Assembly: GCA_014802105.1 (NCBI GenBank)
Contig: JAAVCX010000013.1
Span: 1 to 32,090 of the forward strand
Origin: Bacteroides sp.
Lineage (GTDB): Bacteria > Bacteroidota > Bacteroidia > Bacteroidales > Muribaculaceae
Direction of reading: 5' to 3'
Length of the DNA: 32,090 bases
The first letter of the stretch is position 1, and every line of letters begins with the position of its first letter. The translations under genes were made by a program, and so were the position numbers. Shown in pieces: positions 16,208 to 21,607 of this stretch. The notes under the pieces were generated by a model. It was given only the letters and a program-made list of their open reading frames with translations, ran no database searches and had not been told where the DNA came from.

Positions 16208-17731
16208 ATGCAGGAAAAAATCATCATTCTCGACTTTGGCTCCCAGACCACACAGCTCATCGGACGCCGTGTGCGTGAACTTGGCGAGTATTGCGAGATC
16301 GTTCCCTACAACAAGTTTCCCTACGATGATCCCTCGGTCATCGGCGTGATTCTCTCGGGCTCCCCTTTCTCGGTCTATGACGAGAAAGCGTTCCGGGCCG
16401 AGCTCTCGCGTCTGCGCGGCCATCTGCCCGTGCTCGGTATCTGCTATGGAGCCCAGTTCATAGCCTATACCTCGGGTGGCAGTGTTGAGCCGGCCCCCTC
16501 GCGAGAGTATGGACGTGCCCACCTCTCGACCATCGACTCGGCCGATCCCCTGATGAAGGAGATCCCCGTAGGGTCGCAGGTGTGGATGAGCCACGGCGAC
16601 ACTATCACCTCGATCCCCGAGAATTTCCACACAATCGCCTCGACCGACAAGGTTGCCATCGCCGCCTATAAGGTCGACGGAGAGCCTACCTGGGGAGTGC
16701 AGTTCCACCCCGAGGTCTACCACTCGGAGTGTGGCACACAGTTGCTCCGCAACTTCGTGGTAGACATCTGTGGCGGCAAGCGCGACTGGACAGCCGAGTC
16801 GTTTATCGAGTCGACAGTCAAGGCTCTGCGCGAGCAGCTTGGCGACGACAAGGTCGTGCTCGGCCTCAGCGGTGGCGTCGACTCCTCGGTAGCCGCCGTG
16901 CTTCTCAACCGCGCCATCGGCAAGAATCTCACCTGTATCTTTGTCGACCACGGCATGTTGCGCAAGGATGAGTTCCGCAATGTGCTCCACGACTACGAGT
17001 GTCTCGGCCTCAATGTGATCGGAGTCGATGCCTCCGAGAAGTTCTTCAGCGAACTTGCCGGAGTCACCGAGCCCGAGCGCAAACGCAAGATCATCGGCAA
17101 AGGCTTCATCGATGTCTTCGACGAAGAAGCCCACAAGATCAAGGATGTCAAATGGCTCGCCCAGGGCACTATCTACCCCGACTGCATAGAGTCGCTCTCT
17201 ATCACCGGCACCACCATCAAGAGCCACCACAATGTGGGCGGTCTCCCCGAGAAGATGAACCTCAAGCTCTGCGAGCCTCTGCGTCTGCTCTTCAAGGACG
17301 AAGTGCGTTCGGTGGGTCGTCAGCTCGGCATGCCTGAACACCTGATCAAGCGCCACCCCTTCCCCGGCCCCGGACTGGCTGTGCGCATCCTCGGCGACAT
17401 CACCCCCGAGAAAGTGCGCATCCTTCAGGAAGCCGACGACATCTTCATACAGGGTCTGCGCGACTGGGATCTCTATGACAAAGTCTGGCAGGCCGGCGCC
17501 ATTCTGCTCCCCGTTCAGAGCGTAGGCGTGATGGGCGACGAGCGCACCTACGAGCGAGCCATCGCCCTGCGTGCAGTCACCTCTACCGACGCCATGACAG
17601 CCGACTGGGCCCATCTCCCCTACGACTTCATGGCCAAGGTGAGCAACGACATCATCAACAAGGTCAGAGGCGTCAACCGCGTCTGCTACGACATCTCCTC
17701 CAAGCCACCGGCAACAATCGAGTGGGAGTGA
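16208..17731 (+). CDS. guaA: GMP synthase (glutamine-hydrolysing)
   Basis: A 507-residue two-domain enzyme converting XMP, glutamine and ATP to GMP in de novo purine synthesis. The N-terminal class I amidotransferase domain (about 4-185) has the nucleophile Cys79 in GICYGAQ and the His167/Glu169 pair in FHPEVYHSE. The ATP pyrophosphatase domain carries the P-loop SGGVDSSVA (221-229), and the C-terminal dimerisation domain ends in KPPATIEWE, the normal terminus. Length and motifs are complete. It has its own promoter. The hairpin after its stop is oriented better for the opposite strand, so its own terminator is unclear. Confidence 0.98.
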
Positions 17732-17762: not shown

Positions 17763-17811
17763 ATAAAAACAGTCGTTTAAATTCATAATAACAGGAATTT
17801 AAACGACTGTT
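17763..17811 (-). terminator. 17-base-pair hairpin before the R-M genes, minus-strand terminator form
   Basis: AACAGTCGTTTAAATTC (17768-17784) pairs perfectly with GAATTTAAACGACTGTT (17795-17811). On the plus strand no T run follows, but on the minus strand the stem is followed by five T (plus-strand A 17765-17769, partly inside the stem). It could act in both directions: weakly for guaA, and better for a minus-strand transcript coming out of the restriction gene. Confidence 0.55.
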
Positions 17812-17888: not shown

Positions 17889-18722
17889 ATGGCGAAAAAG
17901 AATCAGTCTAAAAGACTTACAAGACAACATAAAGACTCTCATGGAGTCATCGGTATATTTGGGAAAGAGGCAAAACAGCACGACATCACAGTCGGACAGG
18001 TGTCTCAATCAGTTCTTACTCAACTGACAATTGATTTTCCTACATTATCATTCAGATATAGAGACAGCATACGCAAGGAAGAAATAAATCTGGCACTGCA
18101 GAAGGTTGATAAAGAGTTAGGGCAAACACTATTTGTGCCTAATTCCAGTATAATTCCCGATGGAGGCATAATAGAGGTAAAGGATGACTATGATGAATGG
18201 CGCGTTGTACTCGTTTCAGAAGCAAAACATCAAGGTAAAGATATTGAAAACATACTGGCAGGAAAATTGGTCGGAAAAAATAATGACCAGGATTTGATGG
18301 CTGCTGGTAATGCTATTGAGAGATCTCACAAAAACATTTCGGAAATAGCTAATTTTATGTTGGGAGAGTCACACTTCCCGTATGTTCTTTTTCTTGAGGG
18401 CTCTAATTTCCTGACGGAGACAATCAGCATTACCCGTCCCGACGGGCGAGTGGTTGTCCTTGAATATAATTCCGGAATGCTCAATAGATTAGATCGACTG
18501 ACGGCCGCTAATTATGGATTGCCTATAAATACAAATTTATGCAAAAATAGATTTGTTCGACATCGAGATAAGACCATAATGCTGCAAGCAGCCTCTATTT
18601 ATACGCAAGGAAAGGGAGAGCGATGGTCGTCGGAACACATGTTTAGTATTATGATGGAAATTGCCAGAACATCGATGCAGGTTTTATTTAGCGATTTGTT
18701 TTATCAGCTTCAGAATAAGTAA
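17889..18722 (+). CDS. ecoRIR: Type II restriction endonuclease, EcoRI homologue (expected site GAATTC)
   Basis: A 277-residue protein with the same length and register as EcoRI. Recalled EcoRI landmarks fall at identical numbers: the catalytic residues Asp91 (in PDGGIIEVKDD), Glu111 and Lys113 (in SEAKHQGKDI), and the recognition residues Glu144, Arg145 (in GNAIERSHKN) and Arg200. Other shared blocks include GVIGIFG (19-25) and LSFRYRDSI (53-61). The enzyme should act as a homodimer cutting G^AATTC in unmodified DNA. The start ATG 17889 (MAKKNQSKRLTRQH) matches the EcoRI N-terminus. The gene is visibly AT-richer than its flanks, which suggests horizontal gain. The methyltransferase follows 10 bases later. 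A weak TTATATTG box at 17868-17875 may be its promoter. Confidence 0.96.
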   Translation: MAKKNQSKRLTRQHKDSHGVIGIFGKEAKQHDITVGQVSQSVLTQLTIDFPTLSFRYRDSIRKEEINLALQKVDKELGQTLFVPNSSIIPDGGIIEVKDDYDEWRVVLVSEAKHQGKDIENILAGKLVGKNNDQDLMAAGNAIERSHKNISEIANFMLGESHFPYVLFLEGSNFLTETISITRPDGRVVVLEYNSGMLNRLDRLTAANYGLPINTNLCKNRFVRHRDKTIMLQAASIYTQGKGERWSSEHMFSIMMEIARTSMQVLFSDLFYQLQNK

Positions 18723-18732
18723 GGATACTTTT

Positions 18733-19740
18733 ATGGCACGTAAGGCAACAAATATGACTTTGCACAAGGCGAAGAGTTCCAAAAGTGATGAGTTCTACAC
18801 ATTGCTTGAAGATATTGAGCGTGAGCTGGAGTTCTATAAGGATTGTTTTCGCGATAAAACAGTTTATTGCAACTGCGATAATCCAATGGAGAGTAATTTT
18901 TTCAAATATTTCTTCAATAATTTCGAGTCGTTAGGATTAAAGAAACTTATCTCTTCCTACTATGTTCCCAATGCACAGACACTTTTTGACGAGTCTGTGT
19001 CTGAGCATGGTGGTTATGTTGAATGTACTTCAGACGATCTCAACACCGATATTGCTGATTTGCCATGCAGGCCGTTCAGTGGTGACGGTGATTTCAGAAG
19101 TCAGGAATGTGTCACATTGTTGAAGCAGGCCGATATAATTGTAACCAATCCGCCTTTCTCGCTTTTTAGGGAACATATCTCACAGATAGCCCGCTACAAT
19201 AAAGACTTTCTGATTATCGGAAATATTAATGCTATTACATATCAGGAGGTTTTTCATTTGATTCAATCAAACAAGGCATGGCTGGGTGTACATCTCGGGA
19301 GAGGTATTTCAGGCTTTAAGGTACCCGATCATTATGAGATGTATGGAACAGAAACATATATAGCCGATAATGGAGATCGGATTATTTCTCCGAATAATTG
19401 TCTCTGGCTAACAAATCTTGATGTTAAATCTCGACATAATCTATTGAAACTTACAAAAGTCTATAATGGCAATGAGGGCCTTTATCCCAAGTTTGACAAT
19501 TTTAATGGAATTAATGTCAATAAGACTCAGGATATTCCGATGGATTATGACGGAGTCATAGGTGTGCCTATAACTTTTCTGCATAAATACAATCCATCAC
19601 AGTTTGAGATCATTAGATTTAGAAAAGGTGATGATGGCAAAGATCTCTCGATCAATGGCAAATGCCCTTATTTCAGGATTTTGATAAAGAATAAACAGCC
19701 GATCAAAGATTCTGCTATCAGTTCGTCGTTATTCGCGTGA
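18733..19740 (+). CDS. ecoRIM: Adenine-specific DNA methyltransferase, M.EcoRI homologue
   Basis: A 335-residue N6-adenine methyltransferase that would protect GAATTC by methylating the inner adenine, using S-adenosylmethionine. The catalytic motif NPPF sits at residues 139-142 in DIIVTNPPFSLFRE. Further matches to M.EcoRI as I recall it are the N-terminal LHKAKSSKSDEFYT, SNFFKYF (54-60), SGDGDFRS (116-123), DIPMDYDGVIGVPITF and the end CPYFRILIKNK. About ten extra residues follow the usual end. The frame is open back to 18661 inside the endonuclease gene, but ATG 18733 gives the family N-terminus (MARKATN) and is chosen. It is AT-rich like its partner and lies 10 bases downstream, so they are likely co-transcribed. 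Confidence 0.95.
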   Translation: MARKATNMTLHKAKSSKSDEFYTLLEDIERELEFYKDCFRDKTVYCNCDNPMESNFFKYFFNNFESLGLKKLISSYYVPNAQTLFDESVSEHGGYVECTSDDLNTDIADLPCRPFSGDGDFRSQECVTLLKQADIIVTNPPFSLFREHISQIARYNKDFLIIGNINAITYQEVFHLIQSNKAWLGVHLGRGISGFKVPDHYEMYGTETYIADNGDRIISPNNCLWLTNLDVKSRHNLLKLTKVYNGNEGLYPKFDNFNGINVNKTQDIPMDYDGVIGVPITFLHKYNPSQFEIIRFRKGDDGKDLSINGKCPYFRILIKNKQPIKDSAISSSLFA

Positions 19741-19870
19741 TGCTTTAGTCTGTCATGTTGAGAGGGAGGGCAAACATCTCTCGCGGTGGGGTGTTATACC
19801 CTTTGGAGGACTTGCCTTTTGTTGAGGTCTTGTTTCTGCCTTACAGATATATATAACTAAACTATAATAT

Positions 19871-21607
19871 ATGATAGAATTAAACGAACTACACTCTCCG
19901 GCCGATATCAAGGGGCTGGATAACCGGGAGCTTGAGCAGCTCAGCGATAAACTCAGGGAGGCGCTCCTGAAGAAACTTTCGGCCCACGGCGGTCATGTCG
20001 GCCCTAATCTGGGTGTCGTCGAGGCTACGGTGGCTCTCCACTATGTGTTTAACGCCCCCGAAGATCAGATGGTGTTTGATGTCTCCCATCAGAGCTATGT
20101 CCACAAGATGCTCACCGGCCGCATCGGGGCCTTTATCGATCCCGCGCGCTATGATGAGGTGACAGGCTATACATCGCCCGGCGAGAGCGATTATGACCTC
20201 TTTGAGATAGGCCACACCTCCACTTCGATCTCTCTTGCCACAGGTCTGGCCAAGGCCCGCGACATGAAGGGGGGCCATCAGAATGTCATAGCTTTTATCG
20301 GCGACGCCTCGCTCGGCGGAGGCATGGCGCTCGAGGGTCTCGACTATGCTCCCACTCTCGGATCCAATATAATTATTGTGGTCAATGATAACCAGATGTC
20401 GATAGCCGAAAATCACGGAGCGCTCTACGGTCACCTCGCACGTTTGCGCGAGACCGACGGCCAGGCGCCCGACAATATCTTCAAGGCTCTCGGCTATGAG
20501 TATGTCTACGTCAAGGAGGGCAACGACATAGAGCGGTTGATCGACGCTTTCAGCAAAGTCAAGGATGCCGACCACGCCGTGGTGGTACACATCAACACCA
20601 TGAAAGGTCAGGGCCTCCCGGTGGCCGAGGTCAACAAGGAGAACTTCCACTTCGCGGGCCCGTTTGACCTCAAGACCGGTGCGCCCCTTCATGGAGGAAG
20701 TTCCGAGAGCTATACCGATATGTTTGCCGAGCGCATGCTTGCCCATATCGAAGATAACAGCGAGGTAGCTGTGCTGACCGCCGGCACTCCCGGCGCCTTC
20801 GGCTTCAGCGAGTCGCGTCGTCTCAGAGCCGGTAAACAATTCATCGATGTCGGCATCGCCGAGCAGGACTGTGTCACCATGGCCGCCGGTCTTGCCAAGG
20901 GAGGCACACGTCCCGTGATGGGTGTCGTGGCAACCTTCTTCCAGCGAGCCTACGATCAGCTCAGCCACGATGTCGGTATCAACAATCTGCCGGCGGTGTT
21001 TGTGGAGTTCTATCCCGGCATGTTCGGCATGAACGATGTCACTCATCTTGGCTTCTTCGATGTGGCCATGGTCTCCAATATCCCCAATATCGTGATGCTC
21101 TCGGCCACCAACGCCGAGGAGTATCAGGCCATGATAGATATGGCCGTCGCCCAGACCTCCCATCCTATTGTCATCAGGACTCCCGGCGGGGCAGTGCGTC
21201 ACAGCGACCGTCCCGTCGACACTGACTTCTTCCGCTACGAGGTGGTCGAGCGCGGCGAGGAGATCGCTGTCATAGCCGAGGGCGCGATGTTTGCACGTGC
21301 CTCCGAGGCTGTCGACTTGCTCAGGAAACAGGGCCTGAAGCCTACGTTGATCAATCCGCGCATACTCTCGTCGGTCGACAAGAAGTGTCTTGACTCGCTG
21401 GCCGGTTACCGCCATGTAGTGACTGTCGAGGATGGTATCGTCGACGGCGGTTTCGGACAGAAGGTCGCCGCCTATCTCTCTCCCCGCGGTGTCAAAGTCA
21501 CCTGTCTGGGACTTGCCAAAGAGTTTATCGACCGTTTCGATGTCAAGGAGCTCATGGAGGCAAACGGCCTGACGCCCGAGGCAATCGCCGCGACCGCCTG
21601 CAAGTAA
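19871..21607 (+). CDS. Dxs-like transketolase-family enzyme (1-deoxyxylulose-5-phosphate synthase paralogue)
   Basis: A 578-residue thiamine-diphosphate enzyme with the Dxs domain order, shorter than typical Dxs (about 620-640). Retained: GGH (40-42), the cofactor region GDASLGGGMALEGLDYA ending in VVNDNQMS (144-177, with GDA in place of the usual GDG), His115, the catalytic glutamate Glu331 in VGIAEQD, and His392 in VTHLG. Changed: by my alignment to E. coli Dxs, the two arginines that hold the glyceraldehyde-phosphate phosphate (R420, R478) are Tyr381 and Gly439. It may therefore use another acceptor and not be the isoprenoid enzyme. It has no metabolic neighbours and is closed by its own terminator. 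Confidence 0.8.
   Translation: MIELNELHSPADIKGLDNRELEQLSDKLREALLKKLSAHGGHVGPNLGVVEATVALHYVFNAPEDQMVFDVSHQSYVHKMLTGRIGAFIDPARYDEVTGYTSPGESDYDLFEIGHTSTSISLATGLAKARDMKGGHQNVIAFIGDASLGGGMALEGLDYAPTLGSNIIIVVNDNQMSIAENHGALYGHLARLRETDGQAPDNIFKALGYEYVYVKEGNDIERLIDAFSKVKDADHAVVVHINTMKGQGLPVAEVNKENFHFAGPFDLKTGAPLHGGSSESYTDMFAERMLAHIEDNSEVAVLTAGTPGAFGFSESRRLRAGKQFIDVGIAEQDCVTMAAGLAKGGTRPVMGVVATFFQRAYDQLSHDVGINNLPAVFVEFYPGMFGMNDVTHLGFFDVAMVSNIPNIVMLSATNAEEYQAMIDMAVAQTSHPIVIRTPGGAVRHSDRPVDTDFFRYEVVERGEEIAVIAEGAMFARASEAVDLLRKQGLKPTLINPRILSSVDKKCLDSLAGYRHVVTVEDGIVDGGFGQKVAAYLSPRGVKVTCLGLAKEFIDRFDVKELMEANGLTPEAIAATACK

Follow-up and report, generated by a model that had tools for sequence, protein, structure and literature searches.

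An EcoRI-type restriction-modification pair beside guaA in a Muribaculaceae chromosome, probably acquired at the guaA attachment site

Results

The window encodes an EcoRI-type endonuclease and methylase after guaA

In the window, by which we mean the whole 32,090-nucleotide stretch of DNA analysed, guaA (GMP synthase; 16208..17731, plus strand like all features given here; NCBIfam NF000848) is followed by an EcoRI-type restriction endonuclease of 277 aa (17889..18722), identified by phmmer, PF02963 and residue register, and after a gap of 10 bp by an EcoRI-type adenine methyltransferase of 335 aa (18733..19740; PF13651 E = 2.9e-124; PADLOC MTase_II). A DXS-like gene (19871..21607; NF008968) forms the chromosomal flank. 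The placement of the endonuclease between guaA and a Dxs-like gene of a Bacteroidales chromosome agrees with an earlier sequence-only reading of this DNA, whose finding did not include the methylase beside it. The GC content of the restriction-modification (R-M) pair is ~0.38 and that of its flanks ~0.58.

Searched against PDB chains with phmmer, the endonuclease ORF matched 1ckq (E = 1.1e-131) and, without gaps over residues 1-277, 2oxv (E = 1.7e-131), and the Pfam profile PF02963 (EcoRI) aligned over its whole domain (profile 1-257 of 257; E = 3.8e-144). Identity to the EcoRI of the E. coli plasmid is 206/277 (74%). With Met as residue 1, D91, E111 and K113 are in register with that enzyme, as are N141, A142, E144, R145, R200 and R203, which we take to be the EcoRI recognition residues. 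Among 106 EcoRI-like locus sequences, some of them repeat fetches of one genome, D91, K113, N141, E144, R145, R200 and R203 were invariant, and E111 and A142 were each kept in 105. The earlier reading had described a full-length homologue of the same length as EcoRI, with catalytic D91, E111 and K113 and recognition residues E144, R145 and R200 at EcoRI positions, and had proposed alignment with EcoRI as a check; in that alignment all of these residues line up. Its strong prediction of GAATTC as the target is supported by the EcoRI-family identity and the conserved residues. The window methylase is 65% identical to that of the E. coli plasmid. Together, these results indicate a complete EcoRI-like R-M system for which the predicted GAATTC specificity is well supported. 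The pair is presumably active, and endonuclease and methylase would then effect ordinary restriction of unmodified GAATTC DNA.

We consider it highly unlikely that the window protein is a relative of EcoRI that is inactive or has another specificity. A precedent exists in the more distant EcoRI-like system of Prevotella intermedia (methylase 51% identical to EcoRI's), which is without GAATTC methylation according to the excerpted text of PMC5608340. The window protein, by contrast, retains every catalytic and recognition residue that was tested, and both genes are open; moreover, LraI from Lactococcus, a proven isoschizomer in the EcoRI group, cuts G/AATTC (PMC5896346, excerpt), and the relative GAATTC count of the window's genome is the lowest among 27 genomes of the genus. 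This genome (77% complete) has 95 GAATTC sites compared with 195 for CTTAAG, 138 for GTTAAC and 228 for CAATTG, a ratio of 0.51 to the mean of the three controls. The three EcoRI-positive genus genomes rank 1, 4 and 5 by this ratio, and 11 of 2925 three-rank draws give so low a sum, a statistic that ignores the relatedness of the genomes. Avoidance of GAATTC is suggestive only, since genus members without an EcoRI-type match also show low ratios (G008, 0.58; G014, 0.74). The ratio in G016 is 1.48. The window itself contains no GAATTC, with 10.6 expected from dinucleotide shuffles, a weak observation alone because a maximal-order Markov model expects just 2.5.

The EcoRI homologue highlighted by the earlier reading is not a surprise in this chromosome, given the abundance of such genes. 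A genome contig scan found 135 stretches encoding EcoRI relatives, and about 59 of the 80 best among the 135 are Bacteroidota by record title; separate scans gave 19 plasmid records and 1 phage record. The authors of the LraI study counted 526 putative EcoRI-like proteins in REBASE (PMC5896346, excerpt). With EcoRI relatives so widespread, the window enzyme adds one more member to a known family and is ordinary as an enzyme; the new part is its location at guaA. As a separate observation, the Helicobacter phage Pt11509_1 (PQ159904.1) carries an EcoRI-like endonuclease at two positions; its top match has 57% query coverage and 70% identity.

EcoRI-type genes in the family are linked to the guaA 3′ end

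An EcoRI-type gene was found in 13 of 397 family genomes, many of which are incomplete. In 8 of the 13 (G000, G003, G016, G104, G146, G419, G399 and G403), the window's genome included, it lies directly after guaA on the same strand; in G035, G083, G103, G204 and G340, no guaA match was found within the 1.5 kb flanks of the gene. The genome contig scan added a ninth guaA-linked EcoRI locus, L002, where 743 bp separate the endonuclease gene from guaA. Several places carry both a locus and a genome label: L003 is G146, L004 is G419, L005 is G016, L006 is G003, L195 is G104, L270 is G399 and L218 is G212. Binomial and Fisher tests on guaA linkage and core repeats were set aside, as they assumed a number of places and counted a mismatched copy.

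Individual loci showed further features. Between guaA and the endonuclease of L002, a second guaA-end copy, with the last 20 nt identical, lies ~540-560 bp after the first; the short stretch between the two copies has no listed ORF and is possibly an emptied unit. In L006 the endonuclease gene is interrupted; its record (JAMPAP010000001.1) is titled Lachnoclostridium and has a guaA 89% identical to the window's, so it is probably a mislabelled bin. L193 (G035) has a HindIII-like endonuclease match ~2 kb after guaA (86% over 215 aa, with a further piece at 68%), and two small genes right after its guaA look to us like a pair of the MntA-HepT type. Weak C5-methylase-like matches of 125-128 aa lie close to guaA in L208 and L210 (G061, G103).

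The 3′ end of the window's guaA carries GAGTGGGA (17720..17727), the core also found in GIsul2. In the excerpted text of PMC9376610, GIsul2 targets the guaA 3′ end with its GAGTGGGA core and its integrase is shown to act there. In relatives of the window's host this gene end is an attachment site, and copies of the core mark the distal boundaries of elements and cassettes. The earlier statement that no transposase or integrase lies nearby held for the seven window proteins run through Pfam, to which the check was confined. The guaA/Dxs-like setting without an integrase suggests a non-mobile locus, but this picture is incomplete: in the family, integrase elements and several R-M cassettes without an integrase have integrated at the guaA 3′ end, and the window pair was probably inserted there too.

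On the other side of the pair, no right end and no second guaA core could be recognised between methylase and DXS-like gene (19741..19870), and in a search of the whole window the end profiles derived from integrase-carrying helper elements gave no match better than E = 0.58. The DXS-like gene was not next to guaA in other genus genomes, judged by the places listed. A further DXS-like match, likely the ordinary dxs, is on contig C28 of the window's genome. Read by eye and in alignments, a terminator-like inverted repeat follows guaA (17768..17811), and its counterparts in other guaA-linked EcoRI loci differ in sequence. This hairpin was dropped as a marker of the element because similar hairpins follow guaA in loci free of a cassette.

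Different R-M systems occupy the same site

The contents of 124 guaA flanks (113 of at least 1 kb) were surveyed regardless of load, comprising 26 flanks from the genus and 98 from the 275 family genomes listed with a guaA hit after those of the genus were subtracted, some rows and short contigs being skipped. Nine flanks start with an R-M pair within 300 bp of guaA, as judged by comparison with proteins already identified, so that other kinds would be missed: four are EcoRI-like (one broken), two are of the type found in L218, and one each is NgoBV-like, NotI-like and HindIII-like. One flank starts with a D12 methylase, and six contain an integrase. N6_N4 methylases gave 34 match rows in the 27 genus genomes, the nearest to guaA among the listed places being at 6.8 kb (G011).

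EcoRI cassettes in relatives share right ends with integrase elements

Right ends were recognised in four of the nine guaA-linked EcoRI loci (L005, L006, G104 and G399), where ~150 bp before the core is common to L005, L006, L195 (G104), L270 (G399) and also L218. In L005 and L006 the second guaA-end copy lies ~180-190 bp after the methylase. Behind the methylase, L006, L195 and L270 each have a core that departs from GAGTGGGA by one mismatch; of the four, L005 alone has an exact core there. L005, L006 and G399 have only the endonuclease (R) and methylase (M) genes between guaA and the distal core, with R broken in L006 and G399. The EcoRI cassette in some relatives measures ~2.2 kb and consists of endonuclease, methylase and two ends, with no integrase. 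In L195, the right end and one-mismatch core after the EcoRI methylase are followed by a gene for a 101-aa Xre-type HTH protein and then an exact core, a tandem arrangement that would fit the integration of another small unit at the back of the EcoRI one. L218 has an exact core and another R-M system, consisting of an N6_N4 methylase and a 375-aa protein without a Pfam match, which from its position is probably the endonuclease. For the EcoRI cassettes, comparison with empty sites gave no clean junction.

The same right end occurs in elements that carry an integrase. G141 encodes a 445-aa tyrosine recombinase 196 bp after the guaA stop (PF00589, PF13102 and the arm-binding PF17293) and has a guaA core copy at +8937, preceded by the end common with the EcoRI cassettes; GC is 0.29-0.41 in the listed inside ORFs and 0.58 in the next gene. 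A profile of this single G141 right end matched L218 (4e-23), L006 (1.6e-19), L005 (4e-19), L270 (2e-17) and L195 (1e-15); below E = 1 it otherwise matched just the left arms of integrase elements and one more, incomplete copy in L195, and reversed decoys gave nothing up to E = 30. G063 has an integrase 83% identical to that of G141, 200 bp after guaA, and a G141-type right end (3.6e-24), its core lying at +8139. When 129 guaA flanks were searched for GARTGGGARTRR, L161, L002, L005, L192, L195, L196 and L218 had it in the forward direction; the copy in L192 looks gene-internal, and that in L195 follows the tandem unit. Three reverse-strand matches fell in two loci. A helper-only left-end profile matched the right ends of L005 (2e-8), L218 (4e-6) and L006 (1.5e-4), and on the left ends of the EcoRI loci its E values were 0.46 or worse. 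The left arms, with their TTGTACCC repeats, were rejected as independent evidence because they are too weak.

Other recombinases were also seen at this position: in G144 (L216/L289) a third type of tyrosine recombinase lies right after guaA with a different left end, and G077 (L244/L290) begins like G144 on a contig that ends early.

A second end family carries other R-M systems

In G080, G147, G269 and G294, an integrase 36-39% identical to the first type lies ~1 kb after guaA. The left end of these four elements was found in L238 (2.6e-49), L161 (5.5e-44), L215 (1.4e-39) and L196 (1.3e-30), and also in L283 and L171 (6e-18 and 9e-18). A right-end profile made from L161, L196 and L238 matched G294, G269 and G147 (3e-18 to 7e-18), each time at a guaA core 11.8-15.7 kb after guaA; in G080, no second-family right end was found within 12.3 kb after guaA. 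L161 contains a C5 methylase and an NgoBV-like endonuclease, and L215 an N6_N4 methylase and a HindIII-like endonuclease, with the left end only, as its contig stops before the right end. L238 has the same R-M system as L218 (88-90% identity) with different ends, and hence one R-M type occurs with both end families. Some second-family loci are without a recognised R-M, among them L171, with an acetyltransferase-like gene, and L196, with a 0.5 kb insert and no listed ORF. In G029, which shares its genus code with G269, the sequence starting 71 bp behind guaA corresponds to the DNA beyond the G269 element (71% over 1.7 kb), and G029 is an empty site relative to this element. Among the 397 family genomes, the 9 with an integrase match and the 13 with an EcoRI-type gene do not overlap.

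These ends bear on two ways in which R-M genes could have reached guaA without an integrase. Exchange by homologous recombination, in which R-M cassettes are swapped between conserved flanks, would explain why different two-gene R-M systems occur at the same place beside a conserved gene, an arrangement for which the term minimal mobile element is used in Neisseria. We judge it very unlikely here, as most carriers have different genes on the far side of the cassette, and it is the cassette ends and the copies of the guaA core that are conserved and correspond to those of integrase elements. A mechanism proposed by Kobayashi and co-workers (PMC3031569, excerpt), in which R-M genes insert with a long target duplication, could account for the long perfect guaA-end repeat in L002; the other loci have instead a short repeat that is the same core, with conserved adjoining ends common with integrase elements, and this explanation is extremely unlikely.

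The R-M genes and guaA differ in their relationships

Compared with the window, L002 was 87.4% identical in R, 84.1% in M and 69.5% in guaA; the values for L005 were 83.6%, 77.9% and 93.9%. Over 36 pairs, the correlation of identities was 0.22 between R and guaA and 0.77 between R and M. The guaA-linked endonucleases formed one clade (support 91) in a tree that holds eight of the nine guaA-linked loci, G399's broken gene being left out, and whose sample was chosen by similarity to the window. The guaA data rejected a clade of window and L002 (p = 4e-39) and also the split seen in the R+M tree (L005, L006 and G403 versus the rest; p = 0.004), G403 being a long branch. R+M rejected the window and L005 as sisters (p = 5e-14), a fork that the guaA tree leaves open. 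In AU tests, R+M did not reject the host clade (p = 0.095), a clade of L002, L004 and G399 (p = 0.074) or the genus clade (p = 0.116).

One ancient EcoRI insertion after guaA, passed on by vertical descent while most lineages lost it and the right junction eroded, would agree with the single clade of guaA-linked endonucleases, with the compatibility of R+M with the host and genus clades, and with the window and several relatives having no visible right end. Against such descent, 384 of the 397 family genomes, many incomplete, are without an EcoRI-type match, distant hosts resemble each other more closely in R and M than in guaA, guaA rejects the R+M split, and four cassettes keep right ends common with integrase elements. 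We therefore regard vertical descent as unlikely and transfer of the EcoRI-type pair between hosts as likely.

Discussion

An EcoRI-type R-M pair is linked to guaA, four relatives have right ends in common, and integrases are present at the same gene. We propose that an EcoRI isoschizomer pair probably entered the chromosome at the guaA attachment site by way of a guaA-specific integrase acting in trans. The R-M pair would travel as a two-gene cassette with borrowed ends, and a tyrosine recombinase from a resident or incoming guaA element, supplied in trans, would join the cassette core with the GAGTGGGA of guaA and leave guaA intact; after insertion the ends would decay and the R-M genes would be kept for restriction. 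The arrival of the window copy as a cassette is something we infer, because its own ends are not recognisable, and for the same reason it may be an old, immobilised copy. The lack of an end, the unusual downstream neighbour and the GAATTC-poor genome are consistent with an old resident. G016 still has its right end and a GAATTC ratio of 1.48, and its copy may have arrived more recently.

Several observations weigh against the cassette model: right ends are present in just four of the nine guaA-linked EcoRI loci, with an exact core straight after the methylase in L005 alone of these four, and neither end in the window; the single endonuclease clade could come from one old insertion followed by descent and losses; R+M did not reject the host clade, the L002, L004 and G399 clade or the genus clade; no genome among the 397 has both an integrase and an EcoRI-type gene; and some integrase-less loci of the second end family have no recognised R-M. 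More broadly, we lean towards the view that the guaA 3′ end of Muribaculaceae is a socket for interchangeable two-gene R-M cassettes (EcoRI-like, NgoBV-like, HindIII-like and unnamed), which would be minimal non-autonomous mobile units with ends borrowed from two families of integrase elements and moved in trans.

How restriction systems spread between bacteria without mobility genes is an old question, and the occurrence of one R-M type with two sets of integrase-element ends (L218 and L238) bears on it. Because relatives carry matching integrases at this very target, mobilisation in trans lends itself directly to a test. EcoRI, a textbook enzyme, would probably also have a mobile form that resides in the chromosome, separate from the E. 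coli plasmids. The excerpted text of PMC5704250 mentions integrative mobilizable elements that contain type II R-M systems, as well as integrative mobilizable elements located at guaA; among titles and the beginnings of abstracts we found no description of guaA R-M cassettes, a search too narrow to establish their absence from the literature.

The window pair resembles the EcoRI system of the E. coli plasmid in that the endonuclease is full-length and agrees with EcoRI at all catalytic and recognition positions tested, and in the adjoining EcoRI-type methylase, with R preceding M; it differs in being chromosomal, beside guaA, with a GC of ~0.38 in a setting of ~0.58. With GIsul2 and other guaA integrative mobilizable elements, the cassettes have in common the gene end and the GAGTGGGA core (PMC9376610 and PMC5704250, excerpts), but those elements carry their own integrase and the R-M cassettes carry none. 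The cassettes also resemble CIMEs, as defined in the excerpt of PMC5704250, in having ends kept, integrase absent and tandem arrangements: integrase elements of relatives occupy the insertion site, the guaA 3′ end, a right end is present in L005, L006, G104 and G399, and no integrase accompanies the genes, with R and M alone in L005, L006 and G399 and an added Xre gene in G104. In the window, end profiles found no second core copy or right end. Unlike CIMEs, the cassettes carry in several cases a load of one R-M pair, several unrelated R-M systems share the pattern, the same R-M occurs with two different end families, and the window copy is without visible ends. Finally, insertions of the Kobayashi type likewise place R-M genes at a target with a direct repeat of it, whereas the repeat here is mostly the short integrase core with conserved adjoining ends.
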